Source: Albidovulum sediminis
GTDB taxonomy: Bacteria > Pseudomonadota > Alphaproteobacteria > Rhodobacterales > Rhodobacteraceae
Direction: 5' to 3'
NCBI RefSeq assembly: GCF_025380365.1
Contig: NZ_JAOCQF010000004.1
Location: forward strand, 1-64,000
DNA: 64,000 bases
Positions within the stretch are counted from its first letter, which is position 1; each line of letters begins with the position of its first letter. Shown here one piece after another: positions 38,242-43,757 of the stretch. A program made the translations under genes and the position numbers. Below the pieces are notes generated by a model, which saw only the letters and a program-made list of their open reading frames with translations, was not told the origin of the DNA and did no database searches.

Positions 38242-39108
38242 ATGAACAGTTTCGACGAACGCAAGGAACGGGCCTCGACCTGGTTTCGCGCACTGCGCGA
38301 TGACATCGTCGCAGCCTTCGAGGCACTGGAGACTGCACATGCCGGGGGCGGCCGCGAACCCGGCCGCTTCGAGGTGAGCGAGACGCGGCGGGCGGGCGAC
38401 GGCGGCGGCGGGTTGATGAGCGTCCTGCGCGGCGGCGCCGTCTTCGAGAAGGTCGGCGTCAACGTCTCGACCGTGCACGGTGTTCTGGGAGAGCGGGCAC
38501 AGAAGGCGATGGCGGCGCGCGGGGTTCCCGGCATGGCCCAGGATCCGCGGTTCTGGGCGTCCGGCATCAGCCTGGTCGCCCACATGCAGAACCCCCATAC
38601 CCCCGCCGTGCACATGAACACGCGGATGTTCTGGACGCCGCACGCCTGGTGGTTCGGCGGTGGCGCGGACCTGAACCCCTGCATCGAGTACCCCGAGGAC
38701 ACGGCGCATTTCCACGCGATGCTGCAGGCCGCCTGCGATGCGCACGATCCGGGATACTACGCGCGGTTCAAGGACTGGGCGGACGAATACTTCTTCGTGC
38801 CCCATCGCGGCCGTGCGCGCGGCGTGGGCGGCATCTTCTACGACGACCTGAACACCGGCGACTGGGAGGCGGATTTCGCCTTTACCCAGTCTGTGGGGCG
38901 GGCGTTCCTTCCGGCCTTCGTGCCGGTGACAGAGCGCCGGCTCGGGTCAGCCGCAACCGAGGCCGACCGCGAGACGCAGCTGGTGCATCGCGGGCTTTAT
39001 GCCGAATACAACCTCGTCTACGACCGCGGTACCAAGTTCGGCCTCGAGACCGGGCACGACGCCAGCGCGGTCCTGATGAGCCTTCCACCGGTCGCGAAAT
39101 GGCCGTGA
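38242..39108 (+). CDS. hemF: Oxygen-dependent coproporphyrinogen III oxidase
   Basis: 288 residues from the ATG at 38242, preceded by GAGGAGGG; the frame is open far upstream without a ribosome site. Family motifs: GGVMSVLRGG-like GGGLMSVLRGGAVFEKVGVN, HMNTRMFWTPHAWWFGGGADLNP, HFKDWADEYFF-like FKDWADEYFFVPHR and GLYAEYNLVYDRGTKFGL. It oxidises coproporphyrinogen III with oxygen, the aerobic counterpart of hemN in this window. It converges with the HprK/PqqD-like gene 10 bases downstream. Confidence 0.96.
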   Translation: MNSFDERKERASTWFRALRDDIVAAFEALETAHAGGGREPGRFEVSETRRAGDGGGGLMSVLRGGAVFEKVGVNVSTVHGVLGERAQKAMAARGVPGMAQDPRFWASGISLVAHMQNPHTPAVHMNTRMFWTPHAWWFGGGADLNPCIEYPEDTAHFHAMLQAACDAHDPGYYARFKDWADEYFFVPHRGRARGVGGIFYDDLNTGDWEADFAFTQSVGRAFLPAFVPVTERRLGSAATEADRETQLVHRGLYAEYNLVYDRGTKFGLETGHDASAVLMSLPPVAKWP

Positions 39109-39118
39109 GGGCGCGGAC

Positions 39119-40357
39119 CTAGGGCGCCGGAACAATCAGCGCCTCGCCGAGAAGCTCGGCAAAGGTCCGGGCGCAGTCCTCGGCGATGCGGGCGGGATCT
39201 TCGGCGGGGAAGGCGGTGGCGACGATATCGGCGGCCTCCGGTCCGGTGGCCGGCTCTTCCAGCACGGCCCAGATGACCCGGGCGCCGTGGTTCAGCCGGA
39301 ACAACCCGCGCCCATCGCTGTCGGCAACGTAGTGCAGGCCGTCGATGGTCGTTTCGGTCAGCCCCTCGGCGCGGACGTAGCGGCGTTCGGGGTGGTAGAC
39401 CCGGTTCGCTTCATCGACCGCGGGCGCATCGCTCGACACGTCGAGTGGCGCCGCGACCCTTGGCGCGGGGCGGTTCCAGCGCGGAAATTCCTGCGCCAGA
39501 AGGGCCGCCGCCTCTTCGGCGGACCCGTAGGTCAGCGTGGCCAGCGGCACCTGGCTTGCCAGCGCCTCGAACGCGCGCATGATCCGGCCGGAATGCAGGT
39601 TGCGGGCGAAGTTGCGGTCGATGACGCTTTCGAATGCTTCGGCGCGGGACAGCGGGCCAAGCTGCGGCGGCTCCCCCTCGCGCCGGTCAAGCCGGACGAT
39701 GGCGCCGATGGGCATGCGCGTGCCATGGGCGGCGAGGTTCGGGACCTCGAGGTACTTGTAGCGGTCGTTGCCGGGGCCGGGATTGGCCGCCGCCCAGGTC
39801 CGGAACGCGGACGAAAACCCGGCCGGCACGGGCAGGCGGACGCGGGGAAGGACGCCGGTCGCGATCCCTTCCACGGTGCCATCGGCGGCGATCGTGATCG
39901 GCAGCACATCGTCGCCGAAGACGCAATGCCCGGCGTGGCCGAGAACGGCGGTCAGCACGCTTTTGCCGGCGCGATGGTCGTTGGGAAAGATCACCAGGCG
40001 ACCGGCGAACGCGACCGCGGCCCCATGGAGGCAGAAGAGCGAATCGCTTGCGCGCACACGTTCCAGCGCCAGATCCGCGATGACATCACAGACGGCGTCG
40101 ACGGCGTCCCATTCGTGCGCTGGCTCCGATCCGTGCAGGTCATGGACCAGGTAGCGGTTCGCGCCCGCGCCCGTGATCCGGATGCACGCGTCAGCTTCTC
40201 TCGCCTCCTCCAGAACCTCGAACCGCCAGTGCGGCATGACCGCGCCAAGCACGGGCAGCAGATCGTCAGCACCGTCCATCAGGATCGTCTGGCCCAAGCC
40301 CTCTAAGCGAAGGGCCAATTGCCGGCGCCTGGCGGTGTGCAGCCGCTTCAGCCGCAT
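39119..40357 (-). CDS. HPr-kinase-like / PqqD-like fusion protein
   Basis: 412 residues, no family name certain. Residues about 105-310 resemble the HPr kinase C-terminal fold: LFCLHGAAVAFAGRLVIFPNDHRAGKSVLTAVL has a P-loop at 126-133, though its first Gly is Asn (N-DHRA-GKS), and CVFGDDVLPI gives the Asp pair seen in HPr-type kinases. Residues about 322-410 look like a PqqD/RRE domain (VYHPERRYVRAEGLTETTIDGLHYV, FRLNHGARVIWAVLEE). RRE domains bind leader peptides of ribosomal peptides; HprK-like kinases phosphorylate some of those peptides. The ATG at 40357 has no clear ribosome site but overlaps a short upstream ORF that has one. Two short leader-bearing proteins lie just upstream. Confidence 0.72.
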   Translation of the reverse strand: MRLKRLHTARRRQLALRLEGLGQTILMDGADDLLPVLGAVMPHWRFEVLEEAREADACIRITGAGANRYLVHDLHGSEPAHEWDAVDAVCDVIADLALERVRASDSLFCLHGAAVAFAGRLVIFPNDHRAGKSVLTAVLGHAGHCVFGDDVLPITIAADGTVEGIATGVLPRVRLPVPAGFSSAFRTWAAANPGPGNDRYKYLEVPNLAAHGTRMPIGAIVRLDRREGEPPQLGPLSRAEAFESVIDRNFARNLHSGRIMRAFEALASQVPLATLTYGSAEEAAALLAQEFPRWNRPAPRVAAPLDVSSDAPAVDEANRVYHPERRYVRAEGLTETTIDGLHYVADSDGRGLFRLNHGARVIWAVLEEPATGPEAADIVATAFPAEDPARIAEDCARTFAELLGEALIVPAP

Positions 40358-40458
40358 GGGGGCGAACCGTCAGTGCCGGACAGGCATTTTGCCTGGCCCA
40401 CTCGGCACGAGGACCTGAGGTGGGATGCCGCCCTGGATCGGTCCTGGCCGCTGTGCAT
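40348..40458 (-). CDS. Candidate 36-residue ORF coupled to the HprK/PqqD-like gene
   Basis: A short ORF with a good AGGAG site six bases before its ATG at 40458. Its stop lies inside the first codons of the kinase-like gene (overlap of 10 bases). The product is rich in Ser and Arg with three cysteines in the second half (SSCRVGQAKC then SPPCG). It may be a leader that delivers ribosomes to the weakly initiated kinase-like gene, or a small peptide in its own right. No homology is known to me. It is too short to judge by composition. Confidence 0.4.
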   Translation of the reverse strand: MHSGQDRSRAASHLRSSCRVGQAKCLSGTDGSPPCG

Positions 40459-40665
40459 GATCGCTCCTCATCCGGGTGATGCGACGGCATCGGGGGCGCC
40501 GAGGTCTGTATGTCTTGCGCTGCAGAGGCTAGGCGGCGCCGGAAATCGTGTCAAAGCACAAAAATCGTGTGACCTGCCCGCAGAAGACGAAACGGCGTGG
40601 CGCCGTTCGCCCACCGGCAATGCGCGGCCGCAGACGGGCCCGCGACCGCGCCATCCCGAAAGGGA

Positions 40666-40971
40666 TCAGTTTTCGCCGGGCTGGGGCGCGGGGTCTGGTG
40701 TCGGCTGGGGCGTGGGCGGTTCCTTGCTGCCGCTCGGTTTTGAGGCCGACGAGGGCTTCGAGGCCGACGACGGCGAAGAACCGTGGCCCTTGCGCTTCTT
40801 CCCTTTCTTGTGCGACCGGGAGGCACCCGAACGCCCTTCCGAAGACGACTGGCCCGCCTCCGCCGCACCGAGGGCGGTGACTGCGGGCACGGAGTAGGCG
40901 GAGAGAGCAATCAGGCCAATCCGTGCAAGGGCACGCCGGCGCGACAAGGTCTTTTCTGACAGTTCTGACAT
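40666..40971 (-). CDS. Short Tat-leader protein A with low-complexity tail
   Basis: 101 residues; AGGGAAG precedes the ATG. Residues 9-34 read LSRRRALARIGLIALSAY then SVPAVTAL, a twin-arginine-like leader that is 21 of 26 identical to protein B (41305-41559). Y26-x2-P29-x-V31-x3-G35 resembles the YxxPxLxxxG motif by which RRE domains recognise lasso-peptide leaders. The tail is unrelated to B: a Ser/Lys/Gly-rich basic stretch, SSAS repeats, then a Pro/Thr-rich end. Probably exported; function unknown. An intrinsic terminator sits in its 5' leader. Confidence 0.68.
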   Translation of the reverse strand: MSELSEKTLSRRRALARIGLIALSAYSVPAVTALGAAEAGQSSSEGRSGASRSHKKGKKRKGHGSSPSSASKPSSASKPSGSKEPPTPQPTPDPAPQPGEN

Positions 40972-41014
40972 GAAACTTCCCTACATTTCGGCATCTTCTT
41001 GACGCCATACCTTT

Positions 41015-41040
41015 AAAAAAGGGTGACCTTTGGGGCACCC
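41015..41040 (-). terminator. Intrinsic terminator in the leader of protein A
   Basis: On the minus strand GGGTGCC and GGTCACCC (one bulged T) pair around a 5-base loop and are followed by TTTTTT, 44 bases before the protein A start codon. It could be an attenuator or end a small RNA from the AT-rich stretch at about 41045-41120. That stretch and the rest of 40972-41304 show no other gene. Confidence 0.65.
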
Positions 41041-41168
41041 GTCCGGAAAGATCAGGAACAAGCATGGCTAAACCATGGCGATAAAATGAATTAAAAAAAC
41101 AACCTAAAGATGTTTTGTTCCGGCAGTCTGTGCTTCGGGCTTGGTTGGTCCAAGTCGGCGCATCGGTG

Positions 41169-41198
41169 AAAAAGAAAGGGCGACCTGCGCGGCCGCCC
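41169..41198 (-). terminator. Terminator downstream of protein B
   Basis: On the minus strand GGGCGGCC / GGTCGCCC (one G-T pair) with a 5-base loop is followed by TTTCTTTTT, about 107 bases after the protein B stop. Confidence 0.75.
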
Positions 41199-41304
41199 CG
41201 TCATGTGTCGATGACCTGCCCGGCTTGCGGCAAGTTGCCAGCCGATGCGCAGGCGCTGCCGCCGGCGACAGGGACGCTGCGCCCCGCCCGCGCGGACCCT
41301 GACC

Positions 41305-41559
41305 CTAGTTGGAGCCCGCCGCGCAGTCCGAGCCGTCGTCCTCACCGCAATCGCGGGCGGGCTGGGGCCTACGGTCCGGATCGCTTGGCCCGCTGCGTTC
41401 GTCGCGCACGATCTTTTCCTTCTTGGGTTCAGGGTAGGAGACCGTCGTGGCGTAGCTCAGCGACGTGACCGCGGGAACGGTGTAGGCGCCAAGCGCCAGA
41501 AGCCCCACCCGGGCCAGCGCGCGCCGGCGGGACAAAAGAGATTTCGACATATCGGCCAT
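41305..41559 (-). CDS. Short Tat-leader protein B
   Basis: 84 residues from the ATG at 41559, which follows GGGGAAGG; a second Met three codons on is also possible. The leader S10-R11-R12-R13 with ALARVGLLALGAY then TVPAVTSL is collinear with protein A, including Y26, P29 and V31. The tail differs: a charged stretch (PEPKKEKIVRDERSGPSDPD) and two cysteines near the end (DCGEDDGSDC). Probably exported; function unknown. It lies between hemE and protein A, all on the minus strand. Confidence 0.66.
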   Translation of the reverse strand: MADMSKSLLSRRRALARVGLLALGAYTVPAVTSLSYATTVSYPEPKKEKIVRDERSGPSDPDRRPQPARDCGEDDGSDCAAGSN

Positions 41560-41667
41560 TCTGAAGCCTTCCCCTTGGGTTGAAATGCTGCGACCGACGT
41601 GCGGCCTGCGGGGAAGCATCGGCGCCCAGTTGGACTTAACCATGACGGGAATGGGTCTAATTCGCGT

Positions 41668-42696
41668 TCAACCGCCGCGAATGGCATCCAGCATGCGTGC
41701 CACGTTGTCGGGGTCGGCGTCCGGGGTGATGCCGTGGCCGAGGTTGAAGATATGGGGACCATTGGCGAAGGCGCGCACGACGCGCCGCGTCTCTTCCGTC
41801 AACCTGTCGCCGCCCGTCACCAGAAGTGCGGGGTCGAGGTTGCCCTGCACGCAGCCGTCGGTCTGGACATGCGCTGCCGCCCATTCGGCCGAAACGGAAT
41901 TGTCGATCGCGACGCAGTCCGCCCCCGTCGCGCGGGCGAAGCCGATGTAGCGGTCTCCCGCTTCGCGCGGGAAGGCGATGACGGGCAAGCCCGGGTGGCG
42001 CGCCTTCAGCGCGGCGATGATGCGGCGCGCGGGTTCCAGCGCGAAATCGGTGAAATCCTGGCCTTTCAGCGATCCCGCCCAGCTGTCGAACAGCTTGATG
42101 ACCTCCGCCCCGGCCTGCACCTGGGCCGAAAGGTATTCGACCGTTGCGACGGTCAGAAGGTCGATGAGGGCGGCGAAGGTGGCGCGGTCCGCGGACTTGA
42201 GCGCGTGGGCCGGGCCCTGGTCGGGCGTGCCGCGCCCGGCGATCATGTAGGTGGCCACCGTCCAGGGCGCGCCCGCAAAGCCGATCAGCGTGGTTTCGCG
42301 CGGCAGTTCCCGCGACAGGATGCGCACGGTTTCATAGACCGGGGACAGTCGGCCATGGATGTCGTCCTTGCCGCCGAGCCGCGCGAGATCGGCGGGCGTG
42401 GTGGTGGTGGAGAGCCGCGGCCCCTCGCCCGTCTCGAACCAGAGATCGGCACCCAGCGCCTGCGGCAACAGAAGGATGTCCGCAAACAGGATCGCCGCGT
42501 CGAAGCCGTAGCGGCGGATCGGCTGGAGCGTGACCTCGGCCGCAAGGTCCGGCGTGTAGCAGAGCGACAGGAAATCGCCCGCCTGCGCCCGCGTGGCGCG
42601 GTATTCCGGCAGGTATCGGCCGGCCTGGCGCATCATCCAGACCGGGGGAATGGCCTGGGTTTCGCCGGCCAGCGCCTTGTGGATGGTCTTCGTCAT
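41668..42696 (-). CDS. hemE: Uroporphyrinogen decarboxylase
   Basis: 342 residues from the ATG at 42696 (AAGGAG six bases upstream). Signatures: [17 protein letters not shown] near the N-terminus, [16 protein letters not shown], and [14 protein letters not shown]. It decarboxylates the four acetate side chains of uroporphyrinogen III to give coproporphyrinogen III, the substrate of hemF and hemN. It is divergent from hemC, the 105-base gap holding both promoters. Confidence 0.97.
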
Positions 42697-42800
42697 CAGG
42701 CTCTCCTTCGCCCCCTTCATCGCCGCCTGCGACCGGATGTCAAGGCGAAGTCGGGGTGCGCCCCATTGCGCGGCCAATGTGTCGCGGATATGCCGGAGGC

Positions 42801-43757
42801 ATGACAAAGCCCGATGCACAAACCCCGCTGAAGATCGGAACCCGTGGCTCTCCGCTGGCACTCGCGCAGGCGTTCGAGACGCGCCGGCGCCTGATGGAAG
42901 CCCATCGCCTGCCCGAGGACGCCTTCGAGATCGTCATCATCAAGACGACGGGCGACGACCGGGCGATGATCGCGGCGGACCGCCCGCTGAAGGAGATCGG
43001 CGGCAAGGGGCTTTTCACCCGCGAGATCGAGGACGCGCTGCTGTCGGGCAGGATCGACATCGCGGTCCATTCGATGAAGGACATGCCGGTCGCGCAGCCC
43101 GCAGGGCTTGTGCTCGACTGCTACCTTCCGCGCGAGGATGTGCGCGATGCCTTCGTGTCGCGCGATCATGCCTCGATTGCCGATCTGCCCGCGGGCACCG
43201 TCGTCGGGTCTTCGAGCCTGAGGCGGCGGGCGCAGCTTGCCAACCGGCGGCCGGACCTGGCCCTGGTGCAGTTCCGCGGCAACGTGCAGACGCGGCTGAA
43301 GAAGCTTGAGGACGGCGTGGCGGCGGCGACCTTCCTCGCGATGGCCGGGCTGAACCGTCTGGGCATGAGCCACGTCGCCCGTTCGGCCATTTCCCCGGAG
43401 GAGATGTTGCCCGCGGTGGCGCAGGGCGCCATCGGGATCGAGCGGCGGCAGGCGGACGCGGCCGCCAACGATCTTCTGGCCGCGATCCACGACGGGCCGA
43501 CGGGCGAACGGCTTGCGGCGGAGCGGGCGTTCCTGGCTGCACTCGACGGGTCGTGCGAAACGCCGATCGCCGGGCTTGCGGTCCACGAAGGCGGCGGCCT
43601 CTGGCTGCGCGGAGAGATCCTGCGCCCCGACGGGTCGGAGGCCATCGCGGGGGAGCGGCGGCTTGCGGTGTCCGACGCGGCAGAGGCCGGCCGCGACTTG
43701 GCGCGCGACCTGCTGGCACAGGCCGGCGCGGGATTTTTCGACTGGCGCCAGGGCTGA
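42801..43757 (+). CDS. hemC: Hydroxymethylbilane synthase (porphobilinogen deaminase)
   Basis: 318 residues. The ATG at 42801 follows CGGAGG. Signatures: [50 protein letters not shown]. The cofactor-binding Cys is in [13 protein letters not shown], where dipyrromethane is attached. It condenses four porphobilinogens to hydroxymethylbilane. Divergent from hemE. Confidence 0.97.

Follow-up and report, generated by a model that had tools for sequence, protein, structure and literature searches.

What might a protein do that joins a kinase domain of the HPr kinase (HprK) type to a PqqD-like RiPP recognition element (RRE; RiPP, ribosomally synthesised and post-translationally modified peptide) and is encoded behind two short proteins with a common leader? 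This question is raised by positions 39119 to 41559 of the window, the whole 64,000-nucleotide stretch of Albidovulum sediminis DNA analysed here (assembly GCF_025380365.1, contig NZ_JAOCQF010000004.1). We found that the fusion is nearly always located beside leader proteins whose leader carries a motif matching its RRE and whose tails mostly bear serine at every third residue, which suggests that it probably phosphorylates them before export. The locus would then form a compact phosphorylation cassette, in which the RRE would bind the export signal, the kinase would phosphorylate the tail and the twin-arginine translocation (Tat) pathway would export the product; on the sequence evidence we consider this scheme probable. 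A preliminary description of the DNA had reported such a fusion and two short leader-sharing proteins, here called A and B, and all three genes are present on the minus strand, with the following features:

39119..40357 (-): HprK-like kinase/RRE (PqqD-like) fusion, 412 amino acids (open reading frame, profile matches, AlphaFold model)
39488..40321 (-): HprK-like kinase part, about residues 13-290, with His111, Lys132-Ser133 and Asp149-Asp150 invariant (model secondary structure, conservation)
39959..39982 (-): P-loop, residues 126-133, NDHRAGKS, with Asn in the first and Arg in the fourth place (alignment)
39908..39913 (-): Asp149-Asp150, the HprK-type Asp pair (alignment; role according to excerpts of PMC10368454)
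39128..39379 (-): RRE (PqqD-like) domain, about residues 327-410, with Asn356, Trp363 and Asp394 (profiles, model, alignment)
40666..40971 (-): protein A, 101 amino acids, leader and Ser/Thr-rich tail (open reading frame, tail composition)
40879..40896 (-): YSVPAV in the leader of A, a motif of the RRE-binding type, YxxPx-hydrophobic (leader alignment)
41305..41559 (-): protein B, 84 amino acids from an inner ATG, leader as in A and a short charged tail with a Cys pair (open reading frame)
41467..41484 (-): YTVPAV in the leader of B, a motif of the RRE-binding type (leader alignment)

The start of protein B was placed at the inner ATG; the list of open reading frames holds a longer frame, to 41643. 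Both short proteins lie upstream of the fusion, and 308 bases separate A from it.

The relationship of the fusion to HprK and PqqD, as proposed in the preliminary description, is weak in single-sequence searches and upheld by profile matches to the PDB. The NCBIfam model HprK_rel_A (TIGR04352) matched the single fusion protein with E = 8.8e-7 and 28.3 bits, far below its curated cut-off of 200 bits, and five relatives (30-42 bits) are also under that value. The PqqD model (PF05402) gave E = 2.4e-4 and 21.8 bits against a gathering cut-off of 23.4, 24 bits in a six-frame search of the genome and 30-53 bits for four relatives, and phmmer with the single protein retrieved no useful match from the PDB. 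A profile of 18 sequences, on the other side, matched both RRE structures (TbiB1, a lasso B1 protein, E = 4e-7; LppB, 9x8z, E = 2.1e-6) and HPr kinases (3tqf, E = 2e-4; 1jb1, E = 2e-3). Moreover, an AlphaFold model of the fusion from 56 sequences reached a predicted local distance difference test score (pLDDT) of 92.9 and a predicted template-modelling score (pTM) of 0.90, and the best 50 of 459 matches in a structure search with this model were all PEPCK or HPr kinase, which share a common fold; RRE structures are absent from these best 50. The structure alignment used 55 of 66 loci found by kinase patterns (introduced below), leaving out two with unreadable letters, five split in two frames (L212, L216, L221, L223 and L225), three that are cut off (L217, L220 and L224) and one with the kinase only (L226).

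Co-occurrence of the fusion with leader proteins in other genomes, named in the preliminary description as a second check, holds in two sets of data. Among 198 genomes of the family, 18 encode a full-length fusion, one (G123) a fusion broken by a stop codon, and nine show partial kinase matches only. A leader model, applied to at most 37 candidates per genome, gave a best match of at least 57.6 bits in 20 of the 198 genomes and of 22-29.3 bits in nine more, and the rest had none at E 0.001. These 20 are the 19 fusion genomes and G196, where a leader near a contig end precedes a reading frame that resembles the start of the fusion (31.7 bits) and is truncated by the contig end after 90 codons. 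Leader and fusion are thus found together in 20/20 family genomes that have either the fusion or a strong leader match. In G123 (L049; L020 and L030), the leader protein upstream of the kinase gene with the internal stop is still open.

Since the leader model was built from the same family loci, the second set matters more: 66 loci were found by two kinase patterns and hence chosen without the leader. In 62 of them the kinase is preceded on its own strand by a gene for a leader protein, at 36-189 bases (median 110) from the matched kinase part. The four exceptions are two loci with the kinase at a contig edge (L215 and L216), a split pair with other surroundings (L225) and the locus with the kinase only (L226). 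Judged by their titles, most hosts are Rhodobacteraceae, and the others include Gammaproteobacteria metagenome-assembled genomes (MAGs), a Deltaproteobacteria MAG, Vreelandella venusta, Chelativorans and a gill symbiont of Solemya. As regards search depth, the single fusion protein found no match in the genome contigs, and a profile of close relatives did find loci. The pairing of fusion and leader is not due to chance.

The shared leader noticed in the preliminary description is real, and has to be amended to a Tat-type signal that carries a YxxP motif. The 25 aligned leaders all contain RR (25/25), a hydrophobic stretch, an invariant Tyr and Pro and Ala-34 (25/25), with Ala-36 in at least 90%; the leader pattern can be written RR-x13-YxxPx(L/F/M/V/I). 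In the larger set of 114 distinct leaders scoring above 30 bits, RR...YxxP is present in every one, a Leu, Phe, Met, Val or Ile occurs two residues past the Pro in 113, and the spacing from RR to Tyr is 13 in 105. The twin arginine, the hydrophobic stretch and the AxA-type end (protein B ends in ATT, not AxA) are features of Tat signals, and from these we regard export of the leader proteins by the Tat pathway as likely. Another possibility, that the leaders mark ordinary Tat substrates unlinked to the fusion, was rejected: the Tat model TIGR01409 gave 29 matches up to E 10 in the window's genome, 21 of them above its cut-off, and none of the 29 contains RR..YxxP, while no leader match exceeds 29.3 bits in the other 178 family genomes, with at most 37 candidates scored in each.

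According to excerpts of PMC10368454 and PMC13381572, RREs bind YxxPx(L/V/I/F/A) in lasso leaders and YxxPxV in the leaders of linear polyphosphorylated peptides (LPPs) of Bacillota. The LPP protein LppB uses its Asn33 and Asp70 side chains to fix the Pro kink and the Tyr of the leader, and complex formation is lowered by D70A and nearly abolished by N33A (PMC13381572). When LppB is numbered from the Met after the tag and aligned by the PDB profile, so that the contact residues of the paper fall at its stated numbers, D70 corresponds to Asp394 of the fusion (53/56 sequences) and N33 to residue 356, which is Asn in 36, Asp in 19 and Ser in one of the 56. Other LppB contacts are similar in kind in the fusion (I362, F383, I391 and L407). 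The YxxP motif within the signal, taken together with the conserved Asp394 and Asn/Asp356, indicates that the export signal bears an RRE site and that the enzyme bears much of the pocket. That the RRE of the fusion recognises the leader of A and B, as the preliminary description suggested, is therefore a view strengthened by the YxxPx-hydrophobic motif and the matching RRE residues, and we hold such recognition to be very likely.

In the kinase part, the P-loop and Asp pair were correctly placed in the preliminary description, and His111, Gly131, Lys132, Ser133, Asp149 and Asp150 are invariant in all 56 aligned sequences. These correspond, at the same spacing, to six of the eight kinase residues named for BsfK (His148, Gly168, Lys169, Ser170, Asp186 and Asp187) in the excerpted text of PMC10368454, where BsfK, aided by its RRE, phosphorylates a Ser of a lasso precursor; LppK likewise phosphorylates a Ser in a linear YxxP precursor (PMC13381572). 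Phosphorylation of Ser/Thr in the tails by the fusion seems probable from these residues and from the composition of the tails. It may instead be suggested that the fusion is a chaperone of the Tat signal, a gatekeeper that would bind this signal and spend ATP solely on the timing of export while the tail stays unmodified. Maturation chaperones do time the export of some Tat enzymes, and this idea agrees with a binding motif that sits within the export signal and with three long leader-bearing proteins (below) being subtilases. However, a chaperone needs no kinase site, yet the His, Lys, Ser and both Asp residues are invariant (56/56), and it leaves the spacing of Ser/Thr in the tails unexplained; we therefore judge it unlikely.

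That spacing was analysed in 98 of 115 distinct tails, namely those of at most 140 residues, taking the best leader match only and excluding proteins with a masked stretch. Ser makes up 26% and Thr 6% of these short tails. Pairs of Ser/Thr at lag 3 number 1363, compared with 784 in shuffled tails (standard deviation 17.6, z = 32.9), and pairs at lags 2 and 4 are below the shuffled values. Runs of four or more Ser/Thr spaced three residues apart are present in 84/98 tails, and runs of six or more in 73/98. The tail of protein A is 29% Ser/Thr and has a run of six at every third residue. The residues between the array positions vary (Pro, Ala, Ser, Gly, Thr, Glu and Arg), and both Ser codon families are used in 90/90 tails with at least eight Ser, a count made on an earlier set of 102 tails, some of which were cut short behind a second, spurious match. 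Such spacing and codon use are what selection for hydroxyl groups would be expected to give.

The tails might otherwise be neutral, low-complexity products of slippage, with the target of the kinase elsewhere. Near-identical DNA repeats do lie behind some arrays, for instance in one L046 protein with 18 of 19 Ser encoded by TCG, and protein B has no array at all. Yet the filler residues vary while Ser/Thr persists, and the use of both codon families argues against slippage of a single repeat as the only source, so that a neutral origin appears very improbable. By eye, the tails of L034, L035, L037, L039, L041, L042, L049 and protein B contain a small C-terminal segment with two Cys, and other tails end in a short hydrophobic segment.

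In the phosphorylation scheme favoured here, the C-terminal RRE would bind the YxxPx-hydrophobic motif inside the Tat-type signal of A and B and thereby bring the tail to the HprK-like kinase. While still in the cytoplasm, the tail would be phosphorylated on Ser/Thr by the kinase; the product would then pass to the Tat pathway, and ordinary signal peptidase would remove the signal, which doubles as the RRE leader, at the AxA site. The preliminary description had proposed that the fusion modifies the tails before or during export, perhaps by phosphorylating the Ser/Thr-rich tail of protein A. Invariant kinase residues and the third-residue spacing of Ser/Thr support phosphorylation before export on sequence grounds; the tail of protein B is no obvious target.

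Several observations weigh against this scheme. The leaders were first chosen by a pattern demanding RR/RK and Y/W..P and next by a model built from them, so that this way of choosing partly accounts for the invariance of RR, Tyr and Pro and for the figure of 20 genomes, and at least six of the 66 pattern-found loci also belong to the 198-genome family set. Both A and B are missing from the 29 TIGR01409 matches in the window's genome, and one L033 leader scored 13.2 bits with this model (cut-off 16.7); the case for Tat export hence consists of the RR pair, the hydrophobic stretch and the AxA end. The contacts F74 and V35 of LppB are unconserved in the fusions (mostly Leu, and Gly/Val/Leu, respectively). 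The P-loop differs from that of BsfK, with Asn for the first Gly in 46/56 sequences and Arg for the second conserved Gly in 55/56; Asn is among the few residues able to adopt the backbone shape of Gly. Moreover, the tail of protein B has 11% Ser/Thr and no array. In the excerpts of PMC10368454 and PMC13381572, the known relatives BsfK and LppK modify one Ser only and not arrays, and we therefore infer, rather than observe, modification of whole arrays. Finally, a leader was lacking within 1.5 kb at 11 of 29 loci examined in a class-wide search; two of the 11 are at a contig start.

This class-wide search produced some match in 145/385 genomes, and the 29 loci are those examined besides the window. 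Separate kinase and RRE genes, adjacent and often overlapping, occur in many other Alphaproteobacteria. A leader was found within 1.5 kb in 18 of the 29 loci, four of which are fused (L053-L056), the other 14 having the RRE apart or not seen. Wider flanks still revealed no leader for the split loci L154, L155 and L157-L160, L153 lies at a contig start, and no leader was found at two kinase-only loci without an RRE (L050 and L051). Perhaps the leaderless split HprK-like and RRE pairs serve another pathway with the same enzyme pair. One such pair, L071 (the same place as L154), adjoins a glycosyltransferase identified by Pfam, and L155 and L225 look similar by eye; the kinase-RRE pair thus has at least one other context.

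These neighbours bear on a further explanation, which overlaps with phosphorylation of the arrays except for the last step, namely that the fusion makes another O-linked modification of Ser/Thr, for example by adding a nucleotide, a polyphosphate chain at a single residue, or a primer on which a glycosyltransferase would act. LppK and ThcoK/SyanK are described as placing several phosphates on one Ser (PMC13381572 and PMC10368454, excerpts), and both the altered P-loop and the glycosyltransferase beside the leaderless pairs would fit. The nucleoside triphosphate (NTP) transferase PF14907, however, has no match in the window's genome; it is present in 5/20 fusion genomes and never linked, being on other contigs or, in G184, about 646 kb from the fusion. 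The gene families with most genus/MAG labels beside the fusion in the 66 loci are a two-component pair and a second leader protein, with AMP-binding and ABC ATPase-like open reading frames recurring less. We regard a different O-linked product as possible, though doubtful.

In detail, a response regulator lies beside the fusion in 22 loci (11 labels) and a histidine kinase in 20 (9 labels), as confirmed by Pfam in L034. A second leader open reading frame is found downstream of the kinase in 23/65 loci, for instance L034:8816-9316(-) and L033:10546-10965(+). The second leader protein of L034 matched a PepSY-like family just under the cut-off (E = 5.5e-4), and those of L033, L169 and L200 had no Pfam match. 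The leader also heads subtilases, identified by Pfam in L043:7520-8833(+) (E = 4e-30), L142:7091-8533(+) (6e-24) and L217:4255-5544(+) (1e-24). The L142 subtilase is on a different contig from the fusion of the same genome, indicating that the enzyme may act on distant substrates. An AMP-binding enzyme (Pfam; L184:3628-5184(+)) recurs in 13 loci with 7 labels, mostly upstream of the leader gene, which may be plain synteny among related genomes. An ABC ATPase-like open reading frame recurs in 7 loci with 6 labels. The candidate MsbA-like exporter in L032, an ABC open reading frame adjoining the leader gene, was rejected on a Pfam assignment to an oligopeptide-import ATPase, no exporter model having been searched.

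In the window itself (38242-42861), the cassette is flanked by hemE (-) upstream of A and B and by hemF (+) beyond the fusion on the opposite strand. The one congener examined, G010, retains hemE, but no match to the fusion, protein A or hemF occurs in the 12 kb around hemE, and genome-wide searches of G010 found neither fusion nor leader. The cassette is therefore an accessory element.

The modified product would perhaps be a poly-anionic periplasmic peptide that binds metals or surfaces, and signalling through the neighbouring two-component set is a speculation. It is an evenly balanced matter whether the Tat signal doubles as a RiPP-type leader throughout, so that the RRE-kinase serves both small repeat peptides and larger proteins (the second leader proteins and the subtilases) as a general route of phosphoprotein export in Pseudomonadota. 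To our knowledge, Tat export and leader-guided peptide modification are known only as separate mechanisms. If the proposed scheme is true, the two are joined in one system, which would offer a simple two-gene test of peptide modification preceding export, extend linear RRE-kinase systems beyond Bacillota to many Pseudomonadota and predict an unknown class of phosphoserine-rich exported proteins, whose members can be searched for by the RR-x13-YxxP marker.

How does the locus compare with systems already known? Its fold and active-site residues are those of HPr kinase/phosphorylase (1jb1, 1kkl and 3tqf), but the fusion differs in carrying an RRE, an altered P-loop and leader-protein partners. 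Pairs of HprK-like and PqqD-like proteins are also represented by SynChlorMet ScmC/ScmD and by the HPr-rel-A kinase/PqqD; the models of these systems gave weak matches in the fusion or its relatives, far below their curated cut-offs. The paeninodin-type BsfK/BsfB1 (PMC10368454, excerpts) resembles the system in its RRE-assisted HprK-like kinase and YxxPxL leader motif, whereas the proteins studied here have long repeat tails in place of the short ring-forming core of phosphorylated lasso peptides.

It could be supposed that the locus belongs to a lasso or lanthipeptide-like pathway with its other enzymes elsewhere, since lasso clusters are known to contain an RRE, a YxxP leader and an HprK-like kinase (PMC10368454, excerpts). 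The lasso B2 protein (PF13471) is, however, absent from the window's genome and from 18/20 fusion genomes, and is not at the fusion locus in the remaining two. The macrolactam cyclase family PF00733 (Asn_synthase) gave weak matches only in the window's genome (at most 27.5 bits, another contig), and none of the listed matches in the 20 fusion genomes is within 40 kb of the fusion. With tails that are long repeats without a conserved ring, such a pathway is highly improbable, and as a candidate the lasso pathway was ruled out by the PF13471, PF14907 and PF00733 searches of the 20 fusion genomes. G132 also has a lasso-type set of its own (Asn_synthase, B2, NTP transferase and HprK-like) on contig C114, a different contig from the fusion.

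Among the matches listed in our literature search, no description of a kinase-RRE system with Tat-type leaders was found, and a term search of the available text of RRE-Finder and of a 2025 RRE paper gave no match. The preliminary description, which knew of no described system with this set, nevertheless has to be amended on this point, as related LPPs of Bacillota, made with LppA, LppB and LppK, were published in 2026 (PMC13381572). In the excerpts of that paper, LPPs share with our locus a linear precursor, a YxxPx-hydrophobic leader, a PqqD-type RRE with an Asn/Asp pair for Pro and Tyr, an HprK-like kinase, variable C termini and at least one precursor per locus, and its authors give LPPs and paeninodins as restricted to Bacillota. 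Here, on the other hand, kinase and RRE form a single protein, an export signal of the twin-arginine type serves as the leader, the tails are mostly Ser/Thr arrays and the hosts are mainly Pseudomonadota. Of the LPP leader YxxPxVLxHQxIxFETxxS, only the YxxPx-hydrophobic part is present, and VLxHQxIxFET was not seen in the 25 aligned leaders. As lasso genes are absent at the locus, the NTP transferase is unlinked and the LPP motif past YxxPx is missing, we file the system under neither heading: it appears to work like LPPs and phosphorylated lasso peptides, yet to represent a new, proteobacterial variant outside both.

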